In this document: positions 3,416 through 62,568 of the stretch, one piece after another
Position numbering within the stretch: the first letter of the stretch is position 1
How the letters are laid out: each line of letters opens with the position of its first letter
The notes under the pieces: model-generated
What the model saw: only the letters and a program-made list of their open reading frames with translations
Databases searched by the model: none
Told to the model about the DNA's origin: nothing
Assembly: GCA_029261165.1 (NCBI GenBank)
Contig: JAJDBV010000001.1
Span: forward strand, 1-62,568
Direction of reading: 5' to 3'
DNA from: Nitrospirota bacterium
GTDB taxonomy: Bacteria > Nitrospirota > Nitrospiria > SBBL01 > JAADHI01
Length of the DNA: 62,568 nucleotides
Program-made: the position numbers and the translations under genes

Positions 3416-3441
3416 GTATATGTTTATTTAAGGAGACGGCT

Positions 3442-3675: not shown

Positions 3676-3678
3676 GCT

Positions 3679-4302: not shown

Positions 4303-4388
4303 CGTTGTTTCAGCTCGACCACATAATACTTTTCCTTTTTATTTTTGGGAGGGTCCACTTCTCTTTTTTATAATACGAGTCTCTGTTA

Positions 4389-4622: not shown

Positions 4623-4747
4623 GGTATTTTTCCTCACCTTTAATTTTTAGATCAACATATTGTGGGTGCTCTACTACAAATATACATCAATTTGTGGAAT
4701 TCAACCTATTCAAGAACTTTTTTGAAAATATGATATGGAAATTCATG

Positions 4748-5192: not shown

Positions 5193-6122
5193 GTGAGAGC
5201 GAAAAGCCTGACCCTCTTATTCTTCATCCTGTTGGCTCCCTTCCCTACCCTTGCCCATCGGGGTGGACTTGACTCCTTTGGTTGTCACAACAACCGGACG
5301 GCGGGGATTTACGAATGTCACAAAGGACAATTTGCTGGCCGGTCATTTGCAAGCAAAGCAGAGATGCAAGAAGCTCTGGCTGGGGGTTCAACACCACCTG
5401 GCAATTCTTCTGCCCCAATCCTTCCGGAAGGGCTTTCTGGTTGTGATGAACACCTCAAGTTTGGAGCGCCAAGTAATGAGCCGGTTCTCCTTTGTCGGCT
5501 TGGCTATGCGCTCTCTCATGATGCTGACCTCAAGGTTGCTGACTGGGTGGCCTATCACCTCACAAGAGAGAAGGTCGCTGGAACGCACCCACGTGTTGAT
5601 AGGTTCAGGCCCGACCCGGATTTAAGCCCAGGAGATCGATCTGAGAAGAAGGACTACAGAGGAAGCGGTTATGACCGGGGGCACATGGCACCGGCTGGAG
5701 CAATGAAGTGGTCAATACGAGCGATGAGCGAGAGTTTTCTTCTGTCTAATATGGCTCCCCAGGTCGGAGCGGGATTTAATCGTGGTATTTGGAAATCACT
5801 TGAGACCAAGGTTCGGAAATGGGCCACTGAAAGAGGAGAGCTTTACATCGTCACCGGACCGATCTTTGAGGGTAACTTAAAAACCATCGGAGACAACAAG
5901 GTTGCAGTCCCGACGCATTTCTTCAAGGTAATTTTTGACCCGCTTAGGGTTGAGGTGATTACTTTTGTATTGCGAAACAGGAGGCTCAAGACGAGCGATC
6001 TCCCGAAATACATCACTACCGTCGATGAAGTAGAAAGCCTCACTGGACTCGATTTCCTCTCAGAGATTGAGGATAATGTTGAGACCGTGATTGAAGGAAC
6101 GAAGCAACCGGGGTTGTGGTAG
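5193..6122 (+). CDS. Secreted DNA/RNA non-specific endonuclease (NUC family) with YHYH-like domain
   Basis: This 309-residue secreted nuclease has an N-terminal signal peptide (RAKSLTLLFFILLAPFPTLA, then HRGG), a Cys/His-rich YHYH-type segment (residues about 22-55, FGCHNN...YECHKG), and an Endonuclease_NS domain. The domain carries the catalytic DRGHMAP motif and the metal-ligand Asn region (LSNMAPQ, FNRGIW). Members of this family cleave DNA and RNA with Mg2+. The start is GTG at 5193, because AAAAGGA lies just upstream and the signal peptide then begins at once; an ATG at 5130 would add 21 poorly fitting residues. Two small genes follow closely in the same direction and may form an operon. 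It could act in nutrient scavenging or as a toxin; no immunity gene is recognised. Confidence 0.88.
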   Translation: MRAKSLTLLFFILLAPFPTLAHRGGLDSFGCHNNRTAGIYECHKGQFAGRSFASKAEMQEALAGGSTPPGNSSAPILPEGLSGCDEHLKFGAPSNEPVLLCRLGYALSHDADLKVADWVAYHLTREKVAGTHPRVDRFRPDPDLSPGDRSEKKDYRGSGYDRGHMAPAGAMKWSIRAMSESFLLSNMAPQVGAGFNRGIWKSLETKVRKWATERGELYIVTGPIFEGNLKTIGDNKVAVPTHFFKVIFDPLRVEVITFVLRNRRLKTSDLPKYITTVDEVESLTGLDFLSEIEDNVETVIEGTKQPGLW

Positions 6123-6131
6123 GAGATCAAT

Positions 6132-6305
6132 ATGGCAGAAAAACTCGATCCAAAAGAAGTGGTTTCGTTGGATGAATTAATGATGAGCAATATATTCTTT
6201 CAAGAAGCGATAATGAACCTTCTGGATGCAAAGGGGGTCCTGAAAAAAGAGGAAGTTCTGGAAGAGATCAAAAAGCTGAAAGCTTCCCTTCCGAGGGGCA
6301 GGTAG
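6132..6305 (+). CDS. Small acidic helical protein, unknown function
   Basis: This 57-residue frame has an ATG 9 bases downstream of the nuclease stop and a ribosome site (TAGGAG) that overlaps that stop, so it is probably co-translated. The product is mostly helical (MSNIFFQEAIMNLLDAKGVL, then KKEEVLEEIKKLKA) without Cys or a membrane segment. Its pattern resembles short coiled-coil accessory proteins found in many genomes. No family is recognised. A role as partner of the nuclease is inferred from spacing alone. Confidence 0.6.
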   Translation: MAEKLDPKEVVSLDELMMSNIFFQEAIMNLLDAKGVLKKEEVLEEIKKLKASLPRGR

Positions 6306-6314
6306 GGAGGGAGT

Positions 6315-6542
6315 ATGGGAAATAGCTACCGCTTTTTAGATGAGACCTTGAAACCTGAAACAAGGGATCTCTGTAAACGACATATCGAAGAGTCGATAAG
6401 AGATCAGGGCATAAGTTGCCACTGCGATGACCTCAAAGTAATTGTCAACTTCAATGATCCAACCAAAGTAAGTTGTGCCGCGATGGTGAGATGTGGATGC
6501 GGACATCTCAAGTCCGTGACCTTCCATTTCTCCTTGGCTTAA
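6315..6542 (+). CDS. Hypothetical 75-residue protein with Cys cluster
   Basis: This is a short gene after a good ribosome site (GGGAGGGAGT-ATG), 9 bases beyond the previous gene. The product holds ISCHCDDLK and VRCGCGHLKSVTFHF, four Cys in two C-x-C pairs plus His, which could bind a metal. No family is recognised. It ends the nuclease gene run; a long gene-free region follows. Confidence 0.6.
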   Translation: MGNSYRFLDETLKPETRDLCKRHIEESIRDQGISCHCDDLKVIVNFNDPTKVSCAAMVRCGCGHLKSVTFHFSLA

Positions 6543-6933
6543 GAAGAGAACAATCATCACTTTTTCCCTGTAACCTTGTTTTTTAATGGAGTCTATCTTG
6601 TGCAAGGTTTCTCAACGAAATATTTTCTTCCGTCTCTGAAAATCAGCCCGGCCGATCAGTCTCAGCAAAAATATTGCACTATTTTTAAAAATTATTTTGT
6701 CTGCCGAAAATCGGCCCTAAAGTGGCGATCACTCTGGTGACAACCCTGGTGCTGACCCCGGCGCTTACCCTCGTTCCACCCTGGTGATGCACTTTCACAT
6801 AACACTATGAGTTTACTAACTAATTAAGAGGGACTACCCCTAATATTGCATATAAAAAATGTCGCTGTATTTCAACGATCGGCGCCAACCAGTGTGTACC
6901 GGGTTTGATTCGTGAATAGACGTGTTTTTTTGC

Positions 6934-6962
6934 TTGACAGATGGAATCCGAAGGCGTAATCA
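6934..6962 (+). promoter_or_regulatory. Candidate sigma70 promoter
   Basis: TTGACA (6934-6939), a 17-base spacer and TAATCA (6957-6962) make a fair sigma70-type match inside the gene-free region. No gene start follows within 700 bases, so it may drive a leader or a small RNA. The call rests on sequence only. Confidence 0.3.
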
Positions 6963-7430
6963 TTAAGCCATTATATTAATTGCAATGCTCATCTATTGGG
7001 TGCTTGGGGATTTAATTCCCGAAATATCAACAACTTAGACCTTTCTGCTTATTTAGAAATACTTAATCCGGCGGAAGGGGTTTTTTATGTCTAACGCTTA
7101 ATCTCTTTTTAATCTCTCCTATCACAATGTTTTCTCAGAGTATTTTTAATATCTTCCCCTCATCTTACTAAAATATTTTGGTCGTTCACATGTCGTTGAC
7201 CGCCGATCCTATCGCTCTCCTTTTTCAATGGAAATTCGTGATCCATAAATAATCGTTATCCGCCTGCGCTTTACACCATAGATCTTTTATCCCTGTCTTT
7301 TTGATCAACTGAAACCCGCAACCATTTTCTTGTTTATCCTTTCGTTTTAATTCGTAGCTCCCCGAATTCAAGGTTGCATATGTGAGTCTTTGAGGCTATT
7401 AGAAAGGACAATGATCAATGACATACCTTA

Positions 7431-7450
7431 GTAAAAGTACGTACTCTTAC
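7431..7450. promoter_or_regulatory. 20-bp palindrome, candidate operator
   Basis: GTAAAAGTAC directly followed by GTACTCTTAC is a near-perfect palindrome with one mismatched pair, centred on ACGT. Size and symmetry fit the binding site of a dimeric repressor. The regulator is unknown. Confidence 0.4.
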
Positions 7451-7593
7451 TGATCTTTATTGTGCCGATTTAATCAGTAGCATGTGCCATAAAAACCACA
7501 ACAAGAAATAACCTTTAAACAACCAAAAGGATAGTTCGTTTACTTCTTCAACGGATGACGTTTTGGTCATCTCAAAACAAACTCCATAAAGCC

Positions 7594-7634
7594 AAAGCCC
7601 TTGGAAGAGTCCATATCTTCGAAGGGCTTTTTTA
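7594..7634 (+). terminator. Intrinsic terminator-like hairpin
   Basis: AAAGCCCTT (7594-7602) pairs with AAGGGCTTT (7622-7630), followed by a T run. No gene lies just upstream, so it may end a leader transcript. It is the first of a series of similar hairpins in the block to the right. Confidence 0.6.
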
Positions 7635-7672
7635 TTTCCAAAGAAGGTCTTCCGGTATCACTGACTCATCTT

Positions 7673-7689
7673 TTGTGATGCCATCACAA
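7673..7689. promoter_or_regulatory. 17-bp palindrome, candidate operator or stem
   Basis: TTGTGATG, one central base, then CATCACAA: perfect 8-bp arms, 46 bases before the first possible start codon of the block. It could be a repressor site or an RNA stem. It is inferred from symmetry only. Confidence 0.4.
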
Positions 7690-7734
7690 GGACACCCAAA
7701 GGTGTTCTTTCAACCAGGAGCGATGAGGTGAGTC

Positions 7735-7926
7735 TTGTCAACAAAAACTGACTCAGCCGACGCCTCCAAGATCAAGAAAGCAAGCAGTAAAGAAGCAAGG
7801 GGAAAGAACCCAAATCAAAAAATAATCCAACCTGAAGGAGGAACTTACAATGAAAACAAGAACCAGATTCCAAGGTGCAAAGTCACAAAGAATCGGAAGT
7901 CAGGATTTAAGCGATGTCGGCTATGA
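7735..7926 (+). CDS. Possible 63-residue Lys-rich small protein
   Basis: This TTG-started frame follows a GAGGTGAG sequence at suitable distance and encodes a short, very basic, low-complexity protein (SKEARGKNPNQK). It overlaps the better-supported frame at 7850 in another reading frame, so its last part or the whole may be spurious. No family is recognised. Confidence 0.3.
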   Translation: MSTKTDSADASKIKKASSKEARGKNPNQKIIQPEGGTYNENKNQIPRCKVTKNRKSGFKRCRL

Positions 7927-7984
7927 CCTCAAATATCACTTGAGACAGATCCGCCTAGACCGTCTCCTGGCGCGACAAAGATAA
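7850..7984 (+). CDS. 44-residue basic small protein
   Basis: This frame has a strong ribosome site (GAAGGAGGAACTTACA-ATG) and encodes a compact basic peptide ending in YHLRQIRLDRLLARQR, which could form an amphipathic helix. No known family is seen. Similar tiny basic proteins with good ribosome sites lie at 8476 and 9315, all before the ribonucleotide reductase gene. Function is unknown. Confidence 0.45.
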   Translation: MKTRTRFQGAKSQRIGSQDLSDVGYDLKYHLRQIRLDRLLARQR

Positions 7985-8051
7985 AACCAGATCAGTCTGG
8001 TTCATACCCATCTATCCAACAAATAAACCCATCAAAATAAGGAGGATCCAC

Positions 8052-48023: not shown

Positions 48024-48383
48024 TCAACCGGCCATGACGTGAATTCCGGCAGGTTCCTTAGAACGCGAAGAATGTTTTTTAATGATGATGTCAATATCTT
48101 GATCAAGCGCATTGAGGAGATAAAACAGCTTCTCTACAGAGAAGCGATACAGTCTTCCACGGCTTAATGCAGATATTTGAGGCTGAGAGATATTGAGTAT
48201 TTTTGAAGCTTCCGCTTGTTTTAATCCGCGTTGTTGAATGATTGCGTTAATAGAAGCCGCGATTTTTGCTTTCAACTTTAATTCGTCAGGATTGTCCAGA
48301 CCAAGGTCGGCAAAAACATTTCCGCTGCTTTCAGTGACCTCTATCTCTTGAATGTCCTTTTTTATTTTTTCCGTCTTCATCAT
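48024..48383 (-). CDS. HigA-like XRE antitoxin
   Basis: The 119 residues have a central HTH (LKQAEASKILNISQPQISAL) and LYRFSVEKLFYLLNALDQDI, typical of short XRE antitoxins of the HTH_37 type. The gene overlaps the toxin stop by 4 bp, with the toxin first, the HigBA order. It should neutralise the toxin and repress the operon. Confidence 0.88.
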   Translation of the reverse strand: MMKTEKIKKDIQEIEVTESSGNVFADLGLDNPDELKLKAKIAASINAIIQQRGLKQAEASKILNISQPQISALSRGRLYRFSVEKLFYLLNALDQDIDIIIKKHSSRSKEPAGIHVMAG

Positions 48384-48751
48384 TTTTCTGAACGCCTTTC
48401 GTGTTCCATGACAGCACGTTTGTATCGCATTTTTATGAGATCGATCTCTGATTTGGGGGTTTTAATATCTTTTTTTGATTTCTTTTTAAAGGCATGCAGC
48501 GCATAGACAATCCCTTCCAAACGAACCGTGTAAACTGCTCGATATGTATCGCCGTCAAACCGTTCGATCACTTCCAGAATACCACTTCCGGTTACAATCC
48601 CCTTCAAGGGTTTGACGTGGTCTGCTTTTCCTCCATTCTGAGCGACATCCAAGGCATAGCCGATTTCACAGCGGACCTGTTTGGGAAATTTCCTTAAATC
48701 CTGTAAAGTCGTTCCGATCCATACTAACGGTTTCTCTTCAAATCTTTTCAT
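48380..48751 (-). CDS. HigB-like (Gp49/RelE-type) toxin
   Basis: The 123 residues contain LVWIGTTLQDLRKFPKQVRC, then PLKGIVTGSGILEVIERF and YRAVYTVRLEGIVYALHAFK, the phage-derived Gp49/HigB-like family of ribosome-dependent mRNA endonucleases. The C-terminus is basic. A near-consensus promoter abuts its ATG, which raises a question about the true start. It is followed by the XRE antitoxin. Confidence 0.88.
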   Translation of the reverse strand: MKRFEEKPLVWIGTTLQDLRKFPKQVRCEIGYALDVAQNGGKADHVKPLKGIVTGSGILEVIERFDGDTYRAVYTVRLEGIVYALHAFKKKSKKDIKTPKSEIDLIKMRYKRAVMEHERRSEK

Positions 48752-48962: not shown

Positions 48963-49241
48963 TTACAACTTATCCTTCAAAGCGGGCGCTGGTTTGAACT
49001 TGACCGACTTTGAGGCCTTGATCTTAATCGCTTCTCCCGTCTGTGGGTTCCGGCCCTTCCTGGCGGCGCGTTTTGTCACGGTAAATGTTCCAAAGCCGGG
49101 ATAACTAAAACGGCCGGACTTTTTAATCGTTTTTCCTATAACTGTGAAAGTGCCTGAAATAATCGTTTCAACCGTCTTTTTGCTTAGGCCGTCGTGAGAT
49201 ACTGACTTTGAGATTTCCTCGATAAGTTCACTTTTTGTCAT
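48963..49241 (-). CDS. HU/IHF-family DNA-binding protein
   Basis: The 92 residues read KSELIEEISKSVSHDGLSKK, then GRFSYPGFGTFTVTKRAARK, GRNPQTGEAIKIKASKSVKF and KPAPALKDKL, a complete HU with the DNA-binding arm GRNPQTGE. It bends DNA as a dimer. The ATG has AGAGGTG upstream. It might be a chromosomal-type HU in the flank or a cofactor for nearby recombination. Confidence 0.93.
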   Translation of the reverse strand: MTKSELIEEISKSVSHDGLSKKTVETIISGTFTVIGKTIKKSGRFSYPGFGTFTVTKRAARKGRNPQTGEAIKIKASKSVKFKPAPALKDKL

Positions 49242-49831: not shown

Positions 49832-50776
49832 ATGAATATAGTCGAAACCGAAAGAATCTCATCGTTTGATACGAAAAAAGGATCTTTCGGCCGCCACGAA
49901 ACATTTCCCCTGAGATTTAGTTGGCTGACTAAAGGATTTCAGGAGTTAATTCGTGACCCCAAGATATTCTTATCTGACGATGCGACCGTTACTTTGGGGG
50001 TTGGGAAAAACATGGTCAATGCGATCCGCCATTGGCTTCTAGCGGCGCGTTTAATTAAACCAGGTCCAGAGGGGTTTCTGCCCAATACGCTGGGAGAGAG
50101 GATTTTTGGCTCCGAAGGTTTTGACCCCTACTTGGAAGACGAGGGCACACTCTGGCTAATTCACTGGCTGATTGCGACAAACCCAAAACAGGCAACAGGC
50201 TGGTATTGGTTCTTCAACTGTTTTCATAAAGCAGAATTTACTTCTCAGGAAGTTGCCACATCACTCTTTGATTTTGCCGAGCAGAATATTCAATCAAAGT
50301 TTTCAGCAACAACGGTAAAGCAGGATGCGGCTATTCTATTACGAATGTATGTCCGCTCCAGGGGCAATACCCGTACACCTATTGAGGAGGCTCTCGACTC
50401 TCCTCTGTCGCTACTGAAACTTATTTCCAAGGCAGACGGGACGACCTATTATTCTCGTCCTGCAGAACGTGAGGAATTGCCCCTCGGGATTTTTGGTTTC
50501 GCTGTGGCCGAACTATATCACGCAATGGAAGAGCAGGCCTTGCCCATCGAAACTCTAATGTATTCTAACAACAACTATCCTTCCCCTGGAGCAGTTTTCA
50601 GGCTGACTGAGAATGCCTTGATTGCCAAACTTGAAAAATTGATTCACCAACTACCAGGAATATTTGAAATCCGTGAGACAGCGGGCATTCACCAGCTCTA
50701 CCTCCTGGAGCAGGTTGATCCTGTCAGGTTCCTAGAATTCCACTATGCAGAACAATCGCAGGAGCAAGTGGCTTGA
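49832..50776 (+). CDS. DUF4007 protein (Dnd-associated)
   Basis: This 314-residue protein opens with GSFGRHETFPLRFSWLTKGF and has VTLGVGKNMVNAIRHWLLAA and LIHWLIATNPKQATGWYWFF, the clear pattern of DUF4007. Such genes are found next to PAPS-reductase-like and ATPase genes in DNA-sulfur and related defence loci. A DNA-binding role is possible (winged-helix-like parts). Its end overlaps the ATPase start by 4 bp (TTGA). Confidence 0.85.
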   Translation: MNIVETERISSFDTKKGSFGRHETFPLRFSWLTKGFQELIRDPKIFLSDDATVTLGVGKNMVNAIRHWLLAARLIKPGPEGFLPNTLGERIFGSEGFDPYLEDEGTLWLIHWLIATNPKQATGWYWFFNCFHKAEFTSQEVATSLFDFAEQNIQSKFSATTVKQDAAILLRMYVRSRGNTRTPIEEALDSPLSLLKLISKADGTTYYSRPAEREELPLGIFGFAVAELYHAMEEQALPIETLMYSNNNYPSPGAVFRLTENALIAKLEKLIHQLPGIFEIRETAGIHQLYLLEQVDPVRFLEFHYAEQSQEQVA

Positions 50777-53700
50777 GTGTAGCAGACAAGGTTAGCGTCA
50801 ACACCCACTACACGCGCTCTATCAATCTGGAACGCGATGCCGATTCGATCTCTGTTGTAGCGTCCTATATTCCGACATCACGGGCATTACGGACACTGGA
50901 ACAGATCCTGGATTCCCTTAAGGAAGACGAGAGTCCGCGCGCCTGGTCATTGGTTGGCCCCTACGGGTCGGGTAAGTCTTCTTTCGCGGTCTTTATTTCC
51001 CATCTTCTAGGAGATCCTCGGTATGATGCCACAATAGTTGCCCGTAAAGTTTTAGAAAATAGCAATCCCGCCTTGGCTGCAAAGCTTAGAACCCTATGCG
51101 AAAGCCATGAGGGTTCAGCGGGTTATTGCACGGTATCACTGACCGGCAGACCTGAATCACTCAGTAAGAGAATCATCAATAATCTCGCCGAGACAGCGGA
51201 AGAGATATGGAGAAAGCGACGAGGTCGAAGAAATGCCATCGTGCATAAGCTGGCGAATCTCGCAGAACAAAAAACCCCACCCTCGACAACCGAAGTATTA
51301 GAGTCCATCAAAGAGTTTCAAGAGGCTCTTTCTAAGATAAAATATGATGGATTGATGCTCGTGATCGATGAGCTCGGGAAGTTTTTAGAATATGAAGCCC
51401 GTCACTATGGCGCGAATGATATCTATCTTCTCCAGGCACTTGCTGAGCATGCCCTTTCTTTCCACAGGACTAAGTTTTCATTGGTCGTCCTGCTGCACCA
51501 GTCAATCGACAAGTATGCTCAGGATCTAGGTAAATCACTCAAGGAGGAATGGGCAAAGATCCAAGGTCGATTTGAAACGGTTCCGTTCATTGAATCTGCA
51601 GAACAAACACTCCGCATCGTAGCGGCAGCCATCGAACACGAGTTCGATAAGAAAGAATCCGAAAAGATTTTAAAGTATGCCAAGCGGGCAGCCCGTGTTC
51701 TTGAAAAGGGCAAAGCACTTCCGGGTACGATGGATGAGACCACGGCTGCAGAACTATTTTCCCAATGTTATCCGCTCCACCCTCTGAGCAGCCTGCTTCT
51801 CCCTCTTCTATGCCAAAGGGTCGCACAAAATGAGCGGACCCTCTTCAGTTACCTTGGGAGCCGGGAGGCCTATGGATTCCAAGAAGGTATGGAGCGATGT
51901 AAGCAAGTGGGCGATTGGATCTATCCCTGGGAAATCTACGAATACTTTATTCAGAGTCAACCCGCAATGCTCTCCGATCACGGCACACGCCGCCGTTGGG
52001 CCGAGGTTGTATCGGCCACCGAACGTCTTGGCGATGCCCCTCTGCAGGAGGGAGAACTCCTGAAAACGGTTGGGCTATTGAATATCATCGGAGCAAAAGG
52101 AAACTTCAAAGCATCCAAGCAGATTGTTGAGTTCTGTTTGCCGACAAAAGCGGCGGTAAGAGATACGCTTGATCGATTGTGCAAGAAATCTCTGCTTCAA
52201 TACCGAAAGTTCAGCGCGGAATACCGGGTCTGGCAGGGGAGCGATTTTGACCTTGATGCGCACGTGGAAGAAGAACGGAGTAAGCTCGGACGATTCCCCC
52301 TCGCAGAAAAGCTGAACAGCCGTCACAGCTTGCTCCCGATTGTGGCCCGACGCCACACCATCGAAAAAGGAACTTTACGGTACTTCACTCCGATCTTTAT
52401 TGATGCGGGCTCCTACAGACAGCACCCAAAACAGAATGATCAGGCACGTATCATCTTCTTTCTTGCTGAAAGCAAGGATGATGAGGATTGTTTCCAAGAT
52501 TCAGTAAGGGGCTATTTCTCCGATCTCGATATCACGGTGCTTTGCTTTAATGGCGAACAACTCCGAGAAGGGGTTGGAGAGGTTTTAGCCCTGGAAGAGG
52601 TACAAAAAAAATCTCAAGTACTCAACTCTGATCCGGTCGCCCAACGTGAATTCAAAGACCGATTTGTCGCCGCCGGGGCTAAAGAAGATGAACTACTTGC
52701 ACGCTTAACCGATGAACCAGCTCAGTCTCTTTGGTCTTGGAAGTCGGACCGTCTTTCCATAAGAAGCAAAAGGGCATTGCAAGAAACATTGTCGTCTACT
52801 TTAGATATGATTTACTACGCCGCTCCGATCATCAAAAATGAATTAATTAACCGCGACAAACCGTCAGCCCAGGCTAATGCGGGACGAAACAAGCTGGTAG
52901 TCGCGATGTTGAAAAATGAAAGCGAAGAAGACCTCGGATTCGATAAGTATCCCTCGGAAAAGGCAATCTATCGGGCTCTCCTAAGAGAGACAAGGCTGCA
53001 TGTAAAGGGCAAAGATGGTCAATGGCGATTTCAGGGGCCTCCTAAACGAAATCGTTACAACCTGCACCCAGTTTGGAAACGCATTGAAGGATTTCTCGAC
53101 GGGACGGAGCAAAAACCTCAGTCTCTTATTGAACTCAACCAGGAGCTACTTGCCCCGCCCTATGGCGTGAAAGCAGGGGTTTTACCCATTCTATATCTCA
53201 CTGCCCTGATTGCAGATAAGAATGAGTTAGCAGTCTACGAGAATCGACGCTACGCCCCTTATCTCACTGAAGAACAAGTCGAACGATTTCTGAAACGCCC
53301 GGACGAGTTTACACTGCAACGGTTTAGAATCAGGGGATTAAATCACACGATCTTCCAGGAGTATTCAAAAACTTTATTTGGTGATGAAAAAGGCCGATCT
53401 CTATTATCGCTTGCACGCCCTATTGCCGAATTTATGGGAGAACTTTCGGAATACACAAAAACAACAAAGCGGGGAGTCTCAAAAAAAGCTCAAGATGTCC
53501 GGGATGCCTTTAAGTTAGCAAAGTCTCCTGTCCACCTATTAATGGAGGACATTCCAAGGGCTTTAGATATCAACCTGAAGAAAGCACATCGGGATGGCGA
53601 AGAAGTCAAGTCGCTTTCCAAGCGGTTGACTGAAGTCCTCCGGGAATTAAAACACTGTTGTGCCGGATTGCAAGAAGAGTTGAGGGTGCTGTTAGCACAA

Positions 53701-54279
53701 GCATTTGGATTAGATAAGGAGACAAATATTTCCGAATTACGGCACACCCTCTATGGGCGGTGTGCAGGCTTAGAAAGCTACACAATTGATCGGGACGGGC
53801 AGCGGGCCTTTATTCTGCGCCTGATCAACAATGTTGGCAGTGATGCGCAATGGTTCAACAATATCCTGATGTTTCTAGGGCACAAACCCTTGGAAAAGTG
53901 GAACGACACCGACCGGGATACTGCGGAGTACCGTTTGACAAAATTTACCCGTAAATTGAACGACCTGGAAAAACTCCGTATCCATTACGATTCATTTGAC
54001 CACAATCGCGATGATGATTTTGAGGTTTACCTCCTTCGGAGTATAAAGAAAGGTGCTCCCGATTACGATGAAATCATTGCGGTGGATAAAAAACGTCACG
54101 AAGTGATCTCCAAGGTGAAAACAGGAATCAAGGAGCGGCTGAAGGAACTTGGTGATCAGGACTTGGAACTTGCCGCCCTCGCGGAAGTTGTCGATGAGGT
54201 CTTAGCCGAGCGCCATGAGAATAGCGGCAAGGCCAACGAAACGTTCAAAGAAGGCAGACGGCTGCGCAACGTTAATTGA
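50773..54279 (+). CDS. Large P-loop ATPase (Dnd/BREX-like locus), 1168 aa
   Basis: The N-terminal ATPase has Walker A WSLVGPYGSGKSSFAVFISH (about 55-75) and Walker B GLMLVIDELGKFLEYE (about 195), with VVLLHQSIDKYA as sensor. About 750 helical residues follow. It resembles the big ATPases of BREX (BrxC/PglY), but I cannot name the family. The start is TTG behind CAGGAGCAAGTGGC. Being coupled to DUF4007 and the PAPS-reductase-like gene, it probably forms a complex with them. Confidence 0.75.
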   Translation: MSVADKVSVNTHYTRSINLERDADSISVVASYIPTSRALRTLEQILDSLKEDESPRAWSLVGPYGSGKSSFAVFISHLLGDPRYDATIVARKVLENSNPALAAKLRTLCESHEGSAGYCTVSLTGRPESLSKRIINNLAETAEEIWRKRRGRRNAIVHKLANLAEQKTPPSTTEVLESIKEFQEALSKIKYDGLMLVIDELGKFLEYEARHYGANDIYLLQALAEHALSFHRTKFSLVVLLHQSIDKYAQDLGKSLKEEWAKIQGRFETVPFIESAEQTLRIVAAAIEHEFDKKESEKILKYAKRAARVLEKGKALPGTMDETTAAELFSQCYPLHPLSSLLLPLLCQRVAQNERTLFSYLGSREAYGFQEGMERCKQVGDWIYPWEIYEYFIQSQPAMLSDHGTRRRWAEVVSATERLGDAPLQEGELLKTVGLLNIIGAKGNFKASKQIVEFCLPTKAAVRDTLDRLCKKSLLQYRKFSAEYRVWQGSDFDLDAHVEEERSKLGRFPLAEKLNSRHSLLPIVARRHTIEKGTLRYFTPIFIDAGSYRQHPKQNDQARIIFFLAESKDDEDCFQDSVRGYFSDLDITVLCFNGEQLREGVGEVLALEEVQKKSQVLNSDPVAQREFKDRFVAAGAKEDELLARLTDEPAQSLWSWKSDRLSIRSKRALQETLSSTLDMIYYAAPIIKNELINRDKPSAQANAGRNKLVVAMLKNESEEDLGFDKYPSEKAIYRALLRETRLHVKGKDGQWRFQGPPKRNRYNLHPVWKRIEGFLDGTEQKPQSLIELNQELLAPPYGVKAGVLPILYLTALIADKNELAVYENRRYAPYLTEEQVERFLKRPDEFTLQRFRIRGLNHTIFQEYSKTLFGDEKGRSLLSLARPIAEFMGELSEYTKTTKRGVSKKAQDVRDAFKLAKSPVHLLMEDIPRALDINLKKAHRDGEEVKSLSKRLTEVLRELKHCCAGLQEELRVLLAQAFGLDKETNISELRHTLYGRCAGLESYTIDRDGQRAFILRLINNVGSDAQWFNNILMFLGHKPLEKWNDTDRDTAEYRLTKFTRKLNDLEKLRIHYDSFDHNRDDDFEVYLLRSIKKGAPDYDEIIAVDKKRHEVISKVKTGIKERLKELGDQDLELAALAEVVDEVLAERHENSGKANETFKEGRRLRNVN

Positions 54280-54289
54280 GGCACACATC

Positions 54290-55150
54290 ATGAAGTGGCA
54301 CGAACTCGCACTCAATGAAGATAAAAATACTCGTCATGTCCTAGGTCTTTCTGGGGGCAAAGACAGCGCCGCCCTCGCTATCTATATCAAGGATCACTAT
54401 CCGAAGATATCAGAAAAAATGGAGTATTTTTTCTCTGATACGGGATCGGAACTTCAGGAAGTTTATGAAACCCTCGATAGGCTTGAAGCCTACTTAGGAA
54501 GAGAAATAACCCGTTTGAGTAGTGGAAAACCTTTTGAGCATTGGTTGAAAATGCACGGGAATTATCTACCTTCACCTCGCGAACGATGGTGTACCTTAAT
54601 GATGAAAATCAAACCCTTTGAAAGATTTGTCGGTGACGATCCGGTTATCAGTTATATCGGTATTCGCGCAGACGAAAACCGGGAAGGCTACATCAGCAAA
54701 AAACCGACCATCAAAGCAGTCTTTCCTTTTGTGGAAGACGGCATTGTCAGAGAGGATGTTTTTCAAAAACTAGAAAACTCCATAGGTATTCCAAAATATT
54801 ATGAGTGGAGAAGCCGCTCTGGATGTTATTTTTGTTTTTTTCAGCGGCAGGATGAATGGCTGGGTCTGAAACGGCGTCACCCCGATCTTTTTGAGGAAGC
54901 GAAACGGATTGAGCGTGAGGTCTCGAAAAAAAAGTTTGACTGGGTCAAAGGGGAAGTTGAAGAGTGTGGGCAAGGATATACGTGGAATCAATCAGGGACG
55001 CTTGACGAGATCGTGGCTCGAGCAGAAGAGAAGGAAAAAACAAAGAGGGTATCTAAAACAAAGGGTACACAGAAATGGCAAGATTTGCTGAAGAGTGAAT
55101 CGTATGACGATGACCCTGAAGACCAGGCCTGTTTAATCTGTAGTTTGTGA
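54290..55150 (+). CDS. PAPS-reductase-fold sulfurtransferase (DndC-like)
   Basis: This 286-residue PP-loop protein has LGLSGGKDSAALAIYIKDHY (SGGKDS 21-26), FSDTGSELQEVYETL, and Cys101, Cys179/Cys182 (SGCYFCFFQ) and a C-terminal CLIC pair, which together could hold an Fe-S cluster as in DndC. It would activate DNA backbone sulfur incorporation, though it is much shorter than classical DndC (about 500 residues). The start is ATG 54290 behind GAGGCACACATC; an upstream ATG at 54215 lies inside the ATPase gene. Confidence 0.82.
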   Translation: MKWHELALNEDKNTRHVLGLSGGKDSAALAIYIKDHYPKISEKMEYFFSDTGSELQEVYETLDRLEAYLGREITRLSSGKPFEHWLKMHGNYLPSPRERWCTLMMKIKPFERFVGDDPVISYIGIRADENREGYISKKPTIKAVFPFVEDGIVREDVFQKLENSIGIPKYYEWRSRSGCYFCFFQRQDEWLGLKRRHPDLFEEAKRIEREVSKKKFDWVKGEVEECGQGYTWNQSGTLDEIVARAEEKEKTKRVSKTKGTQKWQDLLKSESYDDDPEDQACLICSL

Positions 55151-55155
55151 CTAAG

Positions 55156-55647
55156 TCAAAACTTTGGGGTAATAGATGAAAATGCCTCGTCGTCCTTTTT
55201 AAGCTTCGACAATTCTTCAACGATTTTATCTACCAATGTGCTAGTACCTTCCAAATCTTGAGGGTTTTCACTTAACCAATCATCTATCGTCGATAACCCT
55301 CCATTACAGTATTCTTCAAAAACTTTGATGCAGTTTATCAGAGATTCGTCTTTTAGAGAATAAACATCCTGAGATTCGAGCAGGCCGAGTAGATAGATGT
55401 ATCCATCCTTTTCATCGCTAGCATATGTCCCTAGAATTATTTGGATAGAACTCTCAAAGACTGGTTCTTTCTTACTAGAGGTGTACCCGACCATTGCTGC
55501 AAAGACCATTAGATCTTTGATAAATTCAAAAATTGGCCGCCCAGTCACTTCTGATCTCCGAGTGCAAAATAGATCAACTAGATGCTCATATTTTCTATTT
55601 CTTCTGACGTTTATTCCTCGCCAGTCTCTTTTTTGTTGCTCAGACAT
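55156..55647 (-). CDS. Dnd-associated protein (dnd_assoc_4-like)
   Basis: This 163-residue protein reads INVRRNRKYEHLVDLFCTRR, then FEFIKDLMVFAAMVGYTSSK and YLLGLLESQDVYSLKDESLI. It matches my memory of the phosphorothioation-associated protein 4 family. Its ATG lies inside the end of the DndD-like gene (8-bp overlap), so it is made with it. Function is unknown. Its stop lies 5 bases from the convergent DndC-like gene. Confidence 0.75.
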   Translation of the reverse strand: MSEQQKRDWRGINVRRNRKYEHLVDLFCTRRSEVTGRPIFEFIKDLMVFAAMVGYTSSKKEPVFESSIQIILGTYASDEKDGYIYLLGLLESQDVYSLKDESLINCIKVFEEYCNGGLSTIDDWLSENPQDLEGTSTLVDKIVEELSKLKKDDEAFSSITPKF

Positions 55648-57652
55648 ATCTTCCGATCTCTTCTATTAACGTTTTATCTACTTCGCAAGTGTATCGGCTT
55701 GTTGGATAAGTTTTTCCATCCACTTTTATTGCGTCTATTTTTTTTCTTCCTTGATCACCTGCTATTTCAAGTACCAAATTATATTCATGGCCTACTTTTT
55801 CTCTAATTGCATGTTCGACCGTCCCTTCCCAGTGACCAGAGGATAAAAGGAAGATTACTTGACCTACGGAGTTTGGGATCTCCTTTGCTACATTTGCTTT
55901 ATATGTATTGTCAAGAACTCCAAATGGGGCATCAATAACAAATGGTGCTATTGCTCCAGGTGTAAGAATGTTCCCTTTTGCTTTTGCTCTTAGTTTTGCG
56001 ATGTTAATGAGTGCTGAGATAAAAGTTAAGCTAAGGAGGAGGGTTTGTCCATCACTTTTTCCCACAGCATTGTTATTTCGATCTTTAAGTTCTAATGAAT
56101 AATTATCAGAAATTGTTGCTTTGAAATCTTGTCGTACAAATTTTTCCAGAAACTTATTTATTTCTGATATCAGTTTAATACGGATGCTCTCCTCTGTTTT
56201 CTCTAGAGTCTCGGATAAGGCATCTTCTATACTCTTAGTATAGTTGAGTCTCTTTTGAAATTTAGCTGCTTGGGGTACAGTTTTAGACAAACGGTTCACT
56301 TCTCCGTCTAGTTTTTGGATCTTTTTATCCGTATCTTTGAATTTATAATTAAAACCAGCTTGCTGTTTAATTGTCTCTTTCAGCTGGTTATCTAATTGAC
56401 GACGCAATTCCTCTTTATTTTTGATATCTTCGAAGTTAATACCGCTAATTTCAAGTGATATTTCTTTAAGTTTTTGTTGCTCACGGTCTAAGGATGATTG
56501 TGAGTCTGATAAGAACTTCAATGTATTTTTAAATGCATCTGGGGCTCGCCTTAGATCTTTTTTAATCGCGGTAAGCTGGCTTCTGGCTCTGGTTACTCTG
56601 CTAACGACTAAAGAGTCAGCAGCTTTTGCCATTAGTTTTTGGATTTCACCAAATGCCGTCGAGCCTGGGTGAACATCGGCTCCACATATACACTTTTTTT
56701 CAGATAAAATGTCCTCGACAAGTTGTACATTATATGGTGCCGGAATTTTTCCTTTTAGTTCCTTTTCATCGATGAATTCGATCCCTAGTTTGACAATTTT
56801 TTGTGAGAAAACAGAAATAGCAAAATCACTCACTAATTTTGTTTTGTCCTCTAGGGCTTTTCTTACGAAGGAGGATAACTCAGAAACTTCCCTTTCCTTC
56901 GCATCTCTAAAGAGTTGTTTTTGTTTTACTAGGTCATGATTGCTATTTCTGAGTTGTTCATCAATTTCTTTTAACCTTTCAGAGAGGGACAGTTGTTCTT
57001 TCTCACAATGTTCAATTTCTTTTCGAGTGAATTCCTTCTCTGATTCAAGTTCACCCAACTGTTTTTGCATTTTGCTTAGATCAGAAGATTTATCTAACTT
57101 TTGATACTCTTTCCTAAGTTCCGTTCTTGCGTAGCGGATACTCTCTAGTGCCTTTTCTGCAACCGTAAATCCAAGAATATCTCTTACTGCGTTGCGAATT
57201 CCACTTTTTCGGGTTCCTGAAGCAATGGACCCCATCCCCTCTCCTTGGAAGAAAAAGTAGTCTGCCATGTCATTAGGAATAATGGTGTTCAGAAAATAAA
57301 AAGGATTGCGTACAGATTCATAGTTTCCGTTGCGGATACGAAAAATAAGAAAGCTGTTTTCAGATCTTTGAACACTAAAAGTCTGTCCGTTTTCTTCGAA
57401 TTCGACATGGACATAGAAGCTATTTTTGTTTTCTTTTTTTGCCCAATTGTTTATGAGTTGAGTGGGAATACTGAAATTTGGGGTCGTACGTTTATAAAAA
57501 CACCAAAGTATTGAATTTAAGAGAGCGGTTTTGCCCACACCGTTTTCAGCATGGATCAGCGTTATGTTCTTATTGGGATCAACTGAAAACTTTATATGCT
57601 GAGTCCCGTAGAATTGCCGAAAGTTTTTTAGTTCTAGGCTCTTTAATATCAT
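55640..57652 (-). CDS. dndD: DndD-like SMC/Rad50-type ATPase
   Basis: This 670-residue ABC ATPase has LKNFRQFYGTQHIKF, Walker A HAENGVGKTALLNSILW (about 35), long coiled coils (about 180-300 and 350-490), and a zinc-hook-like CICGADVHPGS (about 320). LLLSLTFISALINIA (signature region) and APFVIDAPFGVLDNTY (Walker B and D loop, about 570) follow. This is the DndD layout. It is tightly coupled to the 71-residue gene (ATGA) and to dnd_assoc_4. Confidence 0.87.
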   Translation of the reverse strand: MILKSLELKNFRQFYGTQHIKFSVDPNKNITLIHAENGVGKTALLNSILWCFYKRTTPNFSIPTQLINNWAKKENKNSFYVHVEFEENGQTFSVQRSENSFLIFRIRNGNYESVRNPFYFLNTIIPNDMADYFFFQGEGMGSIASGTRKSGIRNAVRDILGFTVAEKALESIRYARTELRKEYQKLDKSSDLSKMQKQLGELESEKEFTRKEIEHCEKEQLSLSERLKEIDEQLRNSNHDLVKQKQLFRDAKEREVSELSSFVRKALEDKTKLVSDFAISVFSQKIVKLGIEFIDEKELKGKIPAPYNVQLVEDILSEKKCICGADVHPGSTAFGEIQKLMAKAADSLVVSRVTRARSQLTAIKKDLRRAPDAFKNTLKFLSDSQSSLDREQQKLKEISLEISGINFEDIKNKEELRRQLDNQLKETIKQQAGFNYKFKDTDKKIQKLDGEVNRLSKTVPQAAKFQKRLNYTKSIEDALSETLEKTEESIRIKLISEINKFLEKFVRQDFKATISDNYSLELKDRNNNAVGKSDGQTLLLSLTFISALINIAKLRAKAKGNILTPGAIAPFVIDAPFGVLDNTYKANVAKEIPNSVGQVIFLLSSGHWEGTVEHAIREKVGHEYNLVLEIAGDQGRKKIDAIKVDGKTYPTSRYTCEVDKTLIEEIGRYV

Positions 57653-57864
57653 TGTAAAGCATCCTCTTCATCAGCGTGAGAAATGATCAGATGTAAAATT
57701 TCTTTCCGTTTCCCGTAAGTGCTTTTTTCGCCGTAAAGACACTTTCTCTCCATCTTGATGATTTCATGAAGAATATGGTTATATGAGTTTTCCCTACTCT
57801 CACTATCATCTTTTTTCAATTCTTTTTTTAAAAGGTCTTTGATTTGTCCATAATTATCGGTCAT
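57649..57864 (-). CDS. 71-residue Dnd-locus small protein
   Basis: This small helical protein (LLKKELKKDDSESRENSYNH, then KMERKCLYGEKSTYGKRKEI) sits between the restriction helicase and DndD-like genes, touching both (TAATG and ATGA). It recalls the small DNA-modification-associated proteins of Dnd loci but is shorter than DndE. I cannot assign it to DndE. Confidence 0.7.
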   Translation of the reverse strand: MTDNYGQIKDLLKKELKKDDSESRENSYNHILHEIIKMERKCLYGEKSTYGKRKEILHLIISHADEEDALQ

Positions 57865-60002
57865 TAAAAATTCCCTATTTCGTCAATTTTTTGTAGATTT
57901 TCGGCCTTGTTCCTAGCTAATTCTAAAAAGTCGTAAACTCTTTCTAGCTCGGCAGTTTTCAGTCGTTCTGAGCTAGGATCATTTCTAGCTGAAGGGTTTG
58001 GCAACACTACAAAGTCATGTATTTCAGCATATTTTTTCCCCGGAAATTTACGAAGTATTCGACCTCTTCGTTGAATGTACTGCCTTGGATTTCTAGTACT
58101 CGCTAAAATATATGCTTGACTGCATGCGGGTATGTCTATTCCTTCATCCAATACTTTCATAGAGACTAGTCCTTGGATGTCGCCATGAAGAAACGAATCT
58201 AAAATTTGTTTTCTCTTTTCACTTGATTCTAGGCAAGTAAACTGTGTCGTTCGCCAACCTTCATCGGCTAGGATCTTGCTTACCCTCGAAACTTGTCGAA
58301 TTGGAGATTCGCTTTCATCATTATCATGATAGCCCTCAGCACAGTAGAACAAGCTGTGATACCGGTTGGCACTATCGACACGAGCGACAATATCTTTCAG
58401 TAGATCAAATTTTTCTTCTGCTGCTCCGAGAAGCCTAGAGCGCTTCCCGCATAAGTATACCAAAACCTTCCTATCAGCGTCATTATTCCGACCGGATTTC
58501 ACTAACGCGGTGATCTCGTTTGATAAATCTTTGAATTCTTCTTGTTCACAGGAGGTCAGGTACGCAAGGTGAATATGATAATTATATGGGGTTAGGACCC
58601 CATCGCTTATCGCATCACTTAGAGTATATTCACACACCACATTACCGTAGTAATTTGTGATTCTTTCTTTTGCGTAATCAGGAAATGGTGATTCAATCTC
58701 TTCCTCATCTGACCTGTAGGGAGTAGCGGATAGTCCCATTCTCATGTGAGTATCCGGCAGAGAATTCGAAATATTTTCTGCCCCATGATGGTGACATTCG
58801 TCACCAATGAAGAGAATCTTATTCCTAGGGAGATCTCTTAATAATATTTGAAAACTTGAACTAGACAGGGTCGCATTAACGACTACTAAACAGCAAAAAT
58901 CGATACTTCTAGTTTTAAATGCAAGAACATCTGCTTGGAGTTTTTCATACCAGTTGCTTTTTTTTATAAAGCACTTGTGTGCATTTATTCTGAACGATCG
59001 AAAAACTTGGACCCATTGATTAGCAAGTTCAATATAGGGTACAGCAACTACTACAAACAATCTTTCCGAAACATCAAGCACTTTTACAGTGCCATAAATT
59101 GCAGTGATGGTTTTTCCAGCACCGGTAGCTAATTTCAAAATCCCTTTGTAATCGTTAGCTCGCCAAGACTCTAATGCTTTTCTTTGATGATCTCTTATCT
59201 GAAAAGGATTTCCAAGTAGTGAATTTGGAATAAAAGGGGATGTCATTAAATTTGATACAAACAACCCTAGATCTCTTCTTTGAGAGAGAAAATCTAGTTC
59301 AATATCTAGGTTTGGCTTTCCTATCACTGCGGCAAGCTCAGCAATGCGGTTATAATCCTTCGAAGGGAGTTGGACACAATATGTTCCTAGTTGTTTGCTG
59401 TTCCAAACTTGATCGAATGCTCGTTCATATTCCAAACCATGTGTTTGATAAACACTTTCCCAACTAGGATAAGTTGAAATTGATTCGGCGTTTAAGTCTT
59501 GCATAGCATTAAGAGATTCGTTTGCAGAGCCTTGGAATACAAGTTTGTCATTATTACCATCGATTAACACCCCTATTTTCTCGTGGTACATTCCTTTTTT
59601 CCGAAACGCAAATTTGATCTCTAGATTTCGACAGGCGATCATCCAGCATAGGAGTTGTAGCCTGTAGGTTTCTAGATCGCCAGCGGGATATTGTAAGGCT
59701 TCATTTAATGCCGATGCTGGAGAAAAATCTAATTCTTCTAATTGTTTTCCATTTTTAACTGCTTCGTATTCTACAGCGTCCAAAGGGTGGCCAATTATCA
59801 ATCTCATTTTCCCATTATTTTTGATGAGAGAGGATAATCCCTGTGCTGCAGCGGAAAGGATATGGGAAGAAAAAAACCCCACAGCACGATTATAAAATTT
59901 TGCTCTAGCTAGCGCTGGAATATAGAAATCCGTGAGTAAGTTGTCAGTTCCGGTACGATAAACGTACTTCCATTCATAACCCTTGAGCATTTGAGATTCC
60001 AA
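57864..60002 (-). CDS. PLD-nuclease plus SF2 helicase (Dnd restriction enzyme-like)
   Basis: This 712-residue protein has an N-terminal phospholipase D-type nuclease half with HEKIGVLIDGNNDKLVFQGS (H-x-K) around residues 140-165 and an SF2 helicase: LKLATGAGKTITAIYGT (about 288), FIGDECHHHGAE (about 397), MGLSATPYRSDEEE, and YIQRRGRILRKF (about 663). It matches the pattern of DNA phosphorothioation system restriction enzymes (TIGR04095-type, by memory). It should cut DNA lacking the modification. It starts the four-gene leftward run. Confidence 0.85.
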   Translation of the reverse strand: MESQMLKGYEWKYVYRTGTDNLLTDFYIPALARAKFYNRAVGFFSSHILSAAAQGLSSLIKNNGKMRLIIGHPLDAVEYEAVKNGKQLEELDFSPASALNEALQYPAGDLETYRLQLLCWMIACRNLEIKFAFRKKGMYHEKIGVLIDGNNDKLVFQGSANESLNAMQDLNAESISTYPSWESVYQTHGLEYERAFDQVWNSKQLGTYCVQLPSKDYNRIAELAAVIGKPNLDIELDFLSQRRDLGLFVSNLMTSPFIPNSLLGNPFQIRDHQRKALESWRANDYKGILKLATGAGKTITAIYGTVKVLDVSERLFVVVAVPYIELANQWVQVFRSFRINAHKCFIKKSNWYEKLQADVLAFKTRSIDFCCLVVVNATLSSSSFQILLRDLPRNKILFIGDECHHHGAENISNSLPDTHMRMGLSATPYRSDEEEIESPFPDYAKERITNYYGNVVCEYTLSDAISDGVLTPYNYHIHLAYLTSCEQEEFKDLSNEITALVKSGRNNDADRKVLVYLCGKRSRLLGAAEEKFDLLKDIVARVDSANRYHSLFYCAEGYHDNDESESPIRQVSRVSKILADEGWRTTQFTCLESSEKRKQILDSFLHGDIQGLVSMKVLDEGIDIPACSQAYILASTRNPRQYIQRRGRILRKFPGKKYAEIHDFVVLPNPSARNDPSSERLKTAELERVYDFLELARNKAENLQKIDEIGNF

Positions 60003-60164
60003 AGTTACCCCTTGCCCGAATCCACCTATTTTGAGAATACTAGCATTCTACCGATATTAGTTACTAGTAATTTCTACCTCTTCATTAGAACTACCTTGCC
60101 TATTCTAGCTATCTATATATTCGAATTTAAACATTTATTCAATTAAAAACCATTCCCTCTTTAC

Positions 60165-62051
60165 CTAAGAAAGTTGAACTATATTATAGATCTGTTTTTT
60201 TAATAATGGAGGCGGCTCAAATTTCCCGCCATAATCAAAAAAGTCCACATGCAATTCACGCAGTTTAATCTTAATCCGTTGAATCAATAACGGAACCTCT
60301 TTTTCAAAATCGTCATATCGCATCAGCGAAACCTTTCCAGAGGTAAAGTGGATCTTGATCAGGTGAATTTCATCAAGATCCCCATAGAGCTGACAGGCAC
60401 AACCCACATAGACACGAAGTTCTGGAGGAAGGTCTTGGAGCAGTCCTTTCGGGATAACCCATGAGTGTCCTTGATTCAATTCACCGATATTGTATTTTTC
60501 GTAGGCTTGGACGGCCTTCTCCCCGATAACTTTTGGGTTTCCCACACTAAAAAGGAGGCGCATTGCTTCTTCGTTGGCGTTGCTGTATTTGTCGAAGAAG
60601 AACTTGATATCCCGTTTTAACTCCTCCGGCATTTGTTTGTAGGGTTTGCGTCTTCCAAATTTATCCAGGGCAAAATAGACGAGCAGGTCTTCCCGGCGTG
60701 CGACACGGGCCTGCTCGAAGGTCTCATGGCCGAAATAATCCACAAGGGCATCGAACGCTTTTTTGTGAGAACTCGCAACGCTTCGCACCCGATCAGAAAA
60801 TTCAAACTCGTTATTGGCAGGGATTCGACCAAGGTCAAGGATTGTCTCCCAAAAATGGGTGAATAGTTCCTTATGTTTATCGATCAGGCCCTTGGTGACC
60901 TGCTTTGTTTGTGTCCTCGCTTCACGCTCGGTAAGCTGCCGCCAGTTGCGGCGGATGTGCTGCCTTTCAAGGAGAAAATGCTGCTCTTCCAGTTTATCTT
61001 TAAAAACGATGAAGACACCTTGTCCCACCGCAATGGGACTCTCCTCTAATGAATCTTCGAGATAAGTCTTAATTTCGCTCTGGGTGTAATAACGTTGAAA
61101 GGTGTTGCGGGAGGTGATGACCCCATCCTTATAAGGTGTAAACTGCTGGATGATGCTCTCTCCCGCAATCATCACAGAAACGATGAGCAGCTTGTTGGCA
61201 TAGCCGAAGGCCCGGATCAAGGTCTCTCTCCGTTCATCAATATCTTCGACGACATTGAGTACATAACCGAGGTTAACGATATCGGATTCAGGTAATTTCC
61301 CGTCGGGTTTATGAGCCGGGTCCCAACCGGTGGCATCGATCCCATGCGCCTCAAGTTCCCTCAAGTCGTCCCCTTTGCCACAGCCGTAGTCGAGTATCGA
61401 ATAGTTCCCATCCAGATAGCTACGCCGGGCCAAAACCTGCATGGGTGATGAGAGCTTGTTCCGGTCAATGGCGGTCTTGTGGCGATCAATACCATTTCCA
61501 GAAATTTCGGGTGTATTGTTCTGGGCAAGGATCTCCTTCTTGTGAAGTCGGCCCTGTTCGTCCAGGATATGACCTTTATTATTAATTAACCGATTCCAGG
61601 ATTTCCTAAAGCCAATTGATCGAGGTTTCTCATAGAGCCCGATGGCCTCTCCCTCTTGAGTAATTGCTTTAAACAGGCTACGGAGAGGGTAGTCTTCGGC
61701 AACAAACGTCTCTTTACGGTGAAGAATGGGTGGGTTATCAGAGGAGGAATAATCAGCCTTCCGGACGGATAATTTGGTTAGATCAATTGTGAAGCTCTGA
61801 TGTAGGGGAGGGTAGGCGTAGGTGTCAAAGTTCGGGTAGTTCAGCAGGGTGATCTTGAAACCACGGCGGAAATATTTGGCAATATTCCATTCTCCACCAT
61901 CGACGTTAAGCGTCTTGGCGATATCCTCTGTAAATATTGCCAGCTCAGGAGACGTCTCAGAGGTCAAGCTCTTGTGGAGGTAAACAGCGTCTGGGAGCTG
62001 CTTACCGAGGTGCAATGCTCCAACTAATTGGTGAAATTTTGGATAATCCAT
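60165..62051 (-). CDS. Dnd-associated putative methyltransferase
   Basis: This 628-residue protein has SAM motif I YSILDYGCGKGDDLRELEAH (about 217) and DIVNLGYVLNVVEDIDERRE, matching phosphorothioation-associated putative methyltransferases (dnd_rel_methyl, by memory). It has an N-terminal domain (about 200 residues) and a long C-terminal helical part. The substrate is unknown. A 162-bp AT-rich gap separates it from the helicase gene, so it may have its own promoter or share a transcript. Confidence 0.82.
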   Translation of the reverse strand: MDYPKFHQLVGALHLGKQLPDAVYLHKSLTSETSPELAIFTEDIAKTLNVDGGEWNIAKYFRRGFKITLLNYPNFDTYAYPPLHQSFTIDLTKLSVRKADYSSSDNPPILHRKETFVAEDYPLRSLFKAITQEGEAIGLYEKPRSIGFRKSWNRLINNKGHILDEQGRLHKKEILAQNNTPEISGNGIDRHKTAIDRNKLSSPMQVLARRSYLDGNYSILDYGCGKGDDLRELEAHGIDATGWDPAHKPDGKLPESDIVNLGYVLNVVEDIDERRETLIRAFGYANKLLIVSVMIAGESIIQQFTPYKDGVITSRNTFQRYYTQSEIKTYLEDSLEESPIAVGQGVFIVFKDKLEEQHFLLERQHIRRNWRQLTEREARTQTKQVTKGLIDKHKELFTHFWETILDLGRIPANNEFEFSDRVRSVASSHKKAFDALVDYFGHETFEQARVARREDLLVYFALDKFGRRKPYKQMPEELKRDIKFFFDKYSNANEEAMRLLFSVGNPKVIGEKAVQAYEKYNIGELNQGHSWVIPKGLLQDLPPELRVYVGCACQLYGDLDEIHLIKIHFTSGKVSLMRYDDFEKEVPLLIQRIKIKLRELHVDFFDYGGKFEPPPLLKKQIYNIVQLS

Positions 62052-62078: not shown

Positions 62079-62568
62079 CTATTTCTCGTCCAACCGTGAC
62101 CTTTTTTTTAAAAGGAGGTTCAGCCAATTTTTCCCGGTTGTATCTTGGGGGTCTTTTGGTGGACTTTTGTCCCACTTCTGGAGTTGAAGAAGAGTGTTGT
62201 CTTGGTACAACTCCTTAACAGTATTTTCATTGTAATATTGGAAATAGCGCCCTTGGTCCTTTACTGGGTCGTTTGTTCCATCTCCATATTTCAGAGAAAT
62301 AAACATAAACCCACCTGGCTTGAGTGCTTTCTCTAAATTTTTTACAGCCTCTTTAGCTTCAATAATTGGTTCGTGATGTAAAGATGCGAGTGCCCATACA
62401 CCATCAAACTCCTCATGAAAAGTAATCTCTTTAAAACTCCTATGTAAGCAGTAGGCATGAGGGTATTCTCGACAAAGCTCTACCATTTCCGAAGATGCAT
62501 CAAAGGAAATAACAATGAAGCCATTTTCGATAAAATATCGCGTATCTCGACCGGTTCCACACCCGGCA
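62079..62568 (-). CDS. SAM-dependent methyltransferase, 5' end beyond window
   Basis: The frame runs to the window edge. It starts in the window with GCGTGRDTRYFIENGFIVIS (SAM motif I) and has ALASLHHEPIIEAKEAVKNL and KPGGFMFISLKYGDG, a small class I methyltransferase. An internal ATG at 62486 is not the start. It lies 27 bp before the Dnd-associated methyltransferase and points the same way. Probably a tellurite-resistance/UbiE-like small methyltransferase; the role is unknown. Confidence 0.85.
   Translation of the reverse strand, partial: AGCGTGRDTRYFIENGFIVISFDASSEMVELCREYPHAYCLHRSFKEITFHEEFDGVWALASLHHEPIIEAKEAVKNLEKALKPGGFMFISLKYGDGTNDPVKDQGRYFQYYNENTVKELYQDNTLLQLQKWDKSPPKDPQDTTGKNWLNLLLKKRSRLDEK

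Follow-up and report, generated by a model that had tools for sequence, protein, structure and literature searches.

The SspBCD proteins write single-stranded phosphorothioate (PT) into DNA, for which nicking by SspB is required, and in the known Ssp systems the single-strand mark lies at CCA (CpsCA). Before this analysis SspBCD had been described beside SspE or SspFGH, as in SspABCD-SspE and SspBCD-SspFGH (Wang 2021, PMC8092258; Xiong 2020), and PbeABCD beside DndCDEA (Xiong 2019, PMC6459918). Ssp marks held SspFGH in check, whereas the Dnd marks tested did not. PbeABCD blocked virus replication, which PT-marked virus escaped, and the published archaeal PbeABCD was paired with Dnd-made GATC marks. 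In their account of CxC ABC ATPase-DndE systems, Rakesh et al. (2024, PMC10853773) named PbeD as the DndE cognate, PbeC and PbeD as the CxC ATPase/DndE pair and PbeA as an HKD nuclease-helicase; they doubted that Pbe is a PT-dependent module, and DNA cutting by PbeA is disputed in the literature. Surveys found 84% of sspBCD modules to be without a known restriction partner and 58% of pbeAC pairs (320/553) to be without dndCD; the authors raised undiscovered partners for the former and other modification partners for the latter.

We analysed a 62,568 nucleotide stretch of DNA from a Nitrospirota bacterium, referred to here as the window. It contained a locus with the same modification genes as SspBCD-SspFGH and SspABCD-SspE, but its restriction half was PbeABCD, with no SspE adjoining and no SspF found in the host genome (the same model found SspF in the related genome G139). 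Compared with DndCDEA-PbeABCD and the CxC systems, the locus had the same PbeA-B-C-D in the same order, but its PT writer was Ssp instead of Dnd and the genome yielded no DndC (the model was positive in five control genomes). As the assembly is approximately 95% complete, these genome-wide absences are not absolute. Unlike BREX type 4, in which BrxP has homology to both SspD and SspB, and BrxC to SspC (PMC12839542), the locus had Pbe genes and no PglZ or BrxL. Menshen (NsnABC) had no match among the matches listed for the locus; an NsnA-like protein was encoded on another contig (C11, L118), unlinked to it. We judge the locus to be a new combination of known cassettes, which most likely acts in PT-based restriction. 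No earlier description of an SspBCD-PbeABCD pairing was found in the main texts of openly accessible papers, a single one of which names both, in a list; an earlier mention elsewhere is possible.

The Ssp modification genes and their sulfur supply

Analysis of the + strand between 49832 and 55150 revealed a three-gene operon. The first gene, sspB (49832–50776), encoded the DUF4007 DNA-binding/nicking component (314 aa), which matched PADLOC SspB at 302 bits (1.5e-90) and PF13182 at 8e-79; when its family profile was compared with solved structures, SspB 6juf was found at 2.8e-61. It overlapped by 4 nt with sspC (50773–54279), which had a TTG start and encoded a BrxC-like AAA+ ATPase of 1168 aa (PADLOC SspC, 1406 bits). 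The third gene, sspD, encoded a PAPS-reductase-like PP-loop sulfurtransferase (PADLOC SspD, 339 bits). Its start was moved by homology from 54215 to what is probably 54290 (residue 26), where the homologue in locus L106 starts, giving a protein of 286 aa (54290–55150) and a gap of 10 nt after sspC. The SGGKDS motif of SspD and five cysteines (counted in the longer frame, residues 126, 204, 207, 306 and 309) were invariant among ten relatives. SspB, SspC and SspD, the Ssp modification gene set, were encoded together, and judged by its gene content the + strand operon is a complete SspBCD PT modification module. The identity of the parts and their linkage to PbeABCD have good support, and from them we predict phosphorothioation and defence.

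An earlier note on this DNA had described a Dnd-like locus with DUF4007, a 1168-residue ATPase and a short DndC-like protein. The first label stood, the protein being SspB, and the other two proteins are now identified as SspC and SspD; SspD scored 22.7 bits against the DndC model, far under the 290-bit cut-off. The absence of DndA and DndB was borne out and extended to DndC. The proposed sulfur-type chemistry would fit the SspBCD gene content, whereas a separate kind of DNA-sulfur modification was not supported, the modification genes being ordinary SspBCD. The suggestion of BREX-4-like parts held for the common ancestry of SspBCD and BREX type 4, in which BrxP matches both SspB and SspD and BrxC matches SspC, but no PglZ or BrxL gene adjoined. 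Profile searches with defence models named Ssp and Pbe at the locus and found neither the full Dnd modification module nor the full gene set of BREX type 4. A true Dnd system was rejected, there being no DndC in the genome, and the locus is not a damaged version of one either.

SspA was absent from the locus. The host genome encoded two strong NifS/IscS-type desulfurases, one of which, on contig C89, lay 3′ of an Rrf2/IscR-like gene and 5′ of chaperone-like genes, a gene set that looks like an ISC operon with IscS. Use of IscS in place of SspA is known from published Ssp systems, and the desulfurase required by the Ssp module is represented here by the IscS on C89. As no DndC was present, SspBCD was the only PT writer found in the genome. 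The sole DUF262 protein over the cut-off was the NsnA-like protein on the other contig.

The convergent Pbe operon and the methyltransferase genes

The − strand carried a second operon, running from 62051 to 55156 and converging on the Ssp operon with 5 bp between the stops of sspD (55150) and pbeD (55156). The seven genes of the earlier note were open at their places and the convergence that it described was confirmed; pbeB was missing from its list. With the operons convergent, Ssp and Pbe are not one transcript here, which counts against reading them as one system.

The pbeA gene (57864–60002, with a start probably at approximately 59990, residue 5, and not at 60002) encoded an HKD (PLD) nuclease fused to an SF2 helicase and matched PADLOC PbeA at 780 bits and TIGR04095 at 424 bits. 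Its HKD signature (H140, K142, D148 and N161) and helicase motifs were kept and invariant in an alignment of six relatives. The pbeB gene (57649–57864), an open frame for a protein of 71 aa that overlapped its neighbours, was identified by position and by the pattern II..ER...Y....S, which it shared with similar small ORFs in the corresponding position of relatives such as L050, L051 and L082. The pbeC gene (55640–57652) encoded a coiled-coil ABC ATPase of 670 aa (PADLOC PbeC, 766 bits) with a Walker A motif and, in the form CIC, the CxC motif; the latter was present in most Pbe-side ATPases of the loci fetched for comparison and absent from the Bacteroidota ones. The last gene, pbeD (55156–55647), was recognised by TIGR04062 (dnd_assoc_4) at 62 bits (6.6e-17), under the 74-bit cut-off, and by its position 3′ of pbeC, which was kept in relatives. 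The genes overlapped by 1 nt (pbeA/pbeB), 4 nt (pbeB/pbeC) and 8 nt (pbeC/pbeD). The PbeD profile matched DndE profiles weakly (39% probability, with an E of 3e-4 in a single comparison), so the equivalence of PbeD and DndE is taken from the literature; nothing useful was found when the PbeD profile was compared with the PDB.

All four Pbe genes were therefore present in the canonical order, PbeB by place and pattern and PbeD by a sub-threshold match. Read from its sequence, the − strand operon comprises a full PbeABCD module of the CxC-ATPase/DndE-like kind and a TIGR04096 methyltransferase gene. The labels DndD-like SMC and restriction helicase, which these genes had first been given, are corrected to PbeC and PbeA, and the missing clear DndE is accounted for by PbeD, its cognate in published work. 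SspFGH was also considered as the identity of this operon and rejected, PADLOC calling Pbe and SspF being absent from the genome.

The intact HKD signature favours DNA cutting by PbeA, without showing it. It would also suit an abortive-infection device of the kind proposed for CxC systems (Rakesh et al., PMC10853773), in which PbeABCD attacks self DNA and is restrained by PbeB, while Ssp has decayed or serves regulation only. The Ssp motifs are intact, however, and some other reason would be needed for the repeated association with a PT writer; we regard this explanation as improbable.

Upstream of pbeA, at 60165–62051, lay a gene for a 628 aa protein that matched TIGR04096, 'DNA phosphorothioation-associated putative methyltransferase', at 631 bits (cut-off 150). 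With PbeD, it would correspond to the two Dnd-associated proteins of the first description. Residues approximately 151–354 formed a class I SAM-methyltransferase core, for which METTL6 was one among many similar structure matches (Z 13.0, 170 residues, 3.0 Å); the predicted structure had a mean pLDDT of 76 and a pTM of 0.41 and was weak around the SAM site; a generic class I core was all that was recognised. The N-terminal part of the protein resembled the C-terminal end of a shorter actinobacterial form in L064 (NPPILHRKE against NPPLLHRKE). This placing of the LHRKE motif, N-terminal in the window protein and C-terminal in the L064 form, points to duplication or permutation of the flanking domain, of which the window protein seems to carry two copies. 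A further class I methyltransferase gene (−) ran off the end of the window: the part for its C-terminus lay at 62079–62568, and the rest extended in the contig to approximately 63392 (437 aa in full). It had a weak match in L052 only and is possibly co-transcribed with the Pbe operon as a putative member of the system.

Both methyltransferase genes are on the pbeA strand and directly upstream of pbeA, as would be expected if the TIGR04096 enzyme, with or without the second one, wrote the self mark for PbeABCD and SspBCD were separate. No DPPY- or PCQ-type DNA-methyltransferase motif was visible in the TIGR04096 alignment, however, and a full-length TIGR04096 protein was lacking in 11 of the 14 Ssp-linked Pbe loci that were fetched. 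Additionally, TIGR04096 occurred with SspBCD in L116, where no Pbe was annotated within approximately 8 kb, and likewise in plasmid records, which indicates a wider association with PT loci. A methylation system of this sort is very unlikely.

Recurrence and history of the Ssp-Pbe pairing

A PbeA-alignment scan with one genome per species yielded 56 loci, 47 of them PbeA-like (L050–L096). With flanks of up to 10 kb, SspB, SspC or SspD was present in 14 of the 47, DndC in 13 and both in none; the other 20 had neither, some being on short contigs. Behind these counts is a pattern-limited sample, for which loci of both kinds served as seeds, and not an unbiased census. As DUF4007 was found in 12 of 396 genomes of the host's phylum, approximately 0.01 chance neighbours are expected in 47 loci, a figure somewhat too low because defence genes cluster. 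When the phylum was scanned with TIGR04095, other helicases dominated the output, and only four matches had the look of true PbeA.

The Ssp-Pbe loci came from Alpha- and Gammaproteobacteria, Bacteroidota, Acidobacteriota and Rhodothermota. Two further pairs were found on plasmids. On a Sphingomonadaceae plasmid (CP099618), sspA-B-C-D-pbeA-B-C-D formed one co-directional and unbroken eight-gene operon, whose genes overlapped or almost abutted, the overlap of sspD and pbeA being 4 nt. On a Rhizobium indigoferae plasmid the modules converged, 15 bp apart, and a cysteine desulfurase gene lay 3′ of sspB. DndB-like genes, DndB being normally a Dnd regulator, were seen between the Ssp and Pbe modules in four loci (L066, 15022–16278; L073, 7583–8818; L091, 8676–9929; L078, 6414–7676).

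In the window, the locus adjoined an IetA-like AAA ATPase and an IetS-like subtilase, a known anti-phage system (44041–47489, −), an HTH_37 and Gp49-like (RelE/HigB type) pair that is likely a toxin-antitoxin module (48024–48751, −) and, beside sspB, an HU-like DNA-binding gene (48963–49241, −), which was also found beside SspBCD in L106 but inverted. Genes for a T4SS coupling protein, a DnaG-like primase, an F-type TraC, TraN, ParB and a recombination-directionality-like protein were encoded between 17 and 43 kb of the window and in the contig beyond it (G000:C1, L043). The defence region is thus apparently part of a conjugative element or plasmid.

In such a region two independent defence systems could adjoin by chance, with Pbe acting alone or with methylation, and the neighbouring IetAS and toxin-antitoxin-like pairs, the conjugation genes beyond and the published pbeAC pairs without dndCD, for which methylation partners were suggested, all agree with this. 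So does base composition (G+C 44–48% in the Ssp genes against 34–39% in the Pbe genes), which is expected of a recent joining and also of chance abutment. However, the pairing was found again among the fetched loci (14 of 47) and on both plasmids, once as a continuous operon, and no Pbe locus of that sample had Ssp together with DndC, all of which argues against chance. The same modules recur in these 16 other loci, from several phyla and in every orientation (co-directional, convergent and divergent), so that two systems merely abutting, the outcome that would have undone the first reading of the locus, is unlikely.

A quick tree of 38 PbeA sequences gave the Ssp link more than one origin. 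The Ssp label needed three changes on this tree, compared with a shuffled mean of 12.5, and a single Ssp clade was rejected (p-AU 2e-80; 1e-4 for the proteobacterial set alone). The window PbeA grouped with those of alphaproteobacterium 46_93_T64, Pseudoalteromonas sp. 0303 and Alteromonas genovensis, all of which are Ssp-linked and carry TIGR04096, and this group was nested in a larger set that includes Dnd-linked Pbe.

Genome G139, from another genus of the host's family, encoded SspB, SspC and SspD that shared 75, 74 and 86% identity with the window proteins, but behind its sspD lay the genes for SspF, SspG and SspH. DNA similarity between the two ran from sspB to 55144 and ended at the end of sspD, where pbeD begins in the window; the Pbe module thus occupies the place held by SspFGH in a close relative. 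Together, this neighbour, the break in similarity and the difference in G+C suggest that the restriction half was exchanged in nature while the modification half stayed nearly constant. In L106, a type I system (HsdR, HsdM and HsdS; 1451–8027) lay directly upstream of the SspBCD-SspFGH of the sister genome. L106 was rejected as an Ssp-Pbe locus, the PbeA relative there being this HsdR.

Proposed mode of action and significance

The locus is probably, and with good confidence, a single PT-based system of restriction, IscS-SspBCD-PbeABCD, to which the TIGR04096 protein would be accessory. The earlier suggestion of a hybrid fits as Ssp with Pbe; that of Dnd with Menshen parts does not, the partner being PbeABCD. 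In this system host IscS would hand cysteine sulfur to SspD, SspB and an SspC ring would find and nick the site, and SspD would put sulfur into one strand of the host DNA. PbeC and PbeD, an ABC ATPase and a DndE-like DNA binder, would scan DNA for the sulfur mark; on unmarked incoming DNA they would engage the PbeA HKD nuclease-helicase, and replication of the invader would stop. PbeB may be a small regulator of the PbeA step. The sulfur mark, its sequence, the reading of self and non-self and the order of events are all predictions of this scheme, as opposed to the identity and completeness of the parts, their intact motifs and their recurrent linkage, which were observed.

We infer that the PbeABCD here reads Ssp marks. 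The archaeal Pbe works with GATC Dnd marks and Ssp marks lie at CCA, so the Pbe reader would need to have changed, which counts against the scheme, as do the doubts of Rakesh et al. about the PT dependence of Pbe. It is also conceivable, though doubtful, that the sulfur mark or a Pbe component is changed or supplemented by the TIGR04096 enzyme and that PbeABCD would therefore read a doubly modified signal; if true, this would be a third layer in PT immunity.

The Ssp-Pbe pairing accounts for part of the orphan sspBCD modules and part of the orphan pbeAC pairs, and it offers concrete cassettes for testing. It would imply that Pbe can switch its target from Dnd to Ssp marks, and the closely related Ssp-linked and Dnd-linked Pbe sets may provide a means to find the PT reader.
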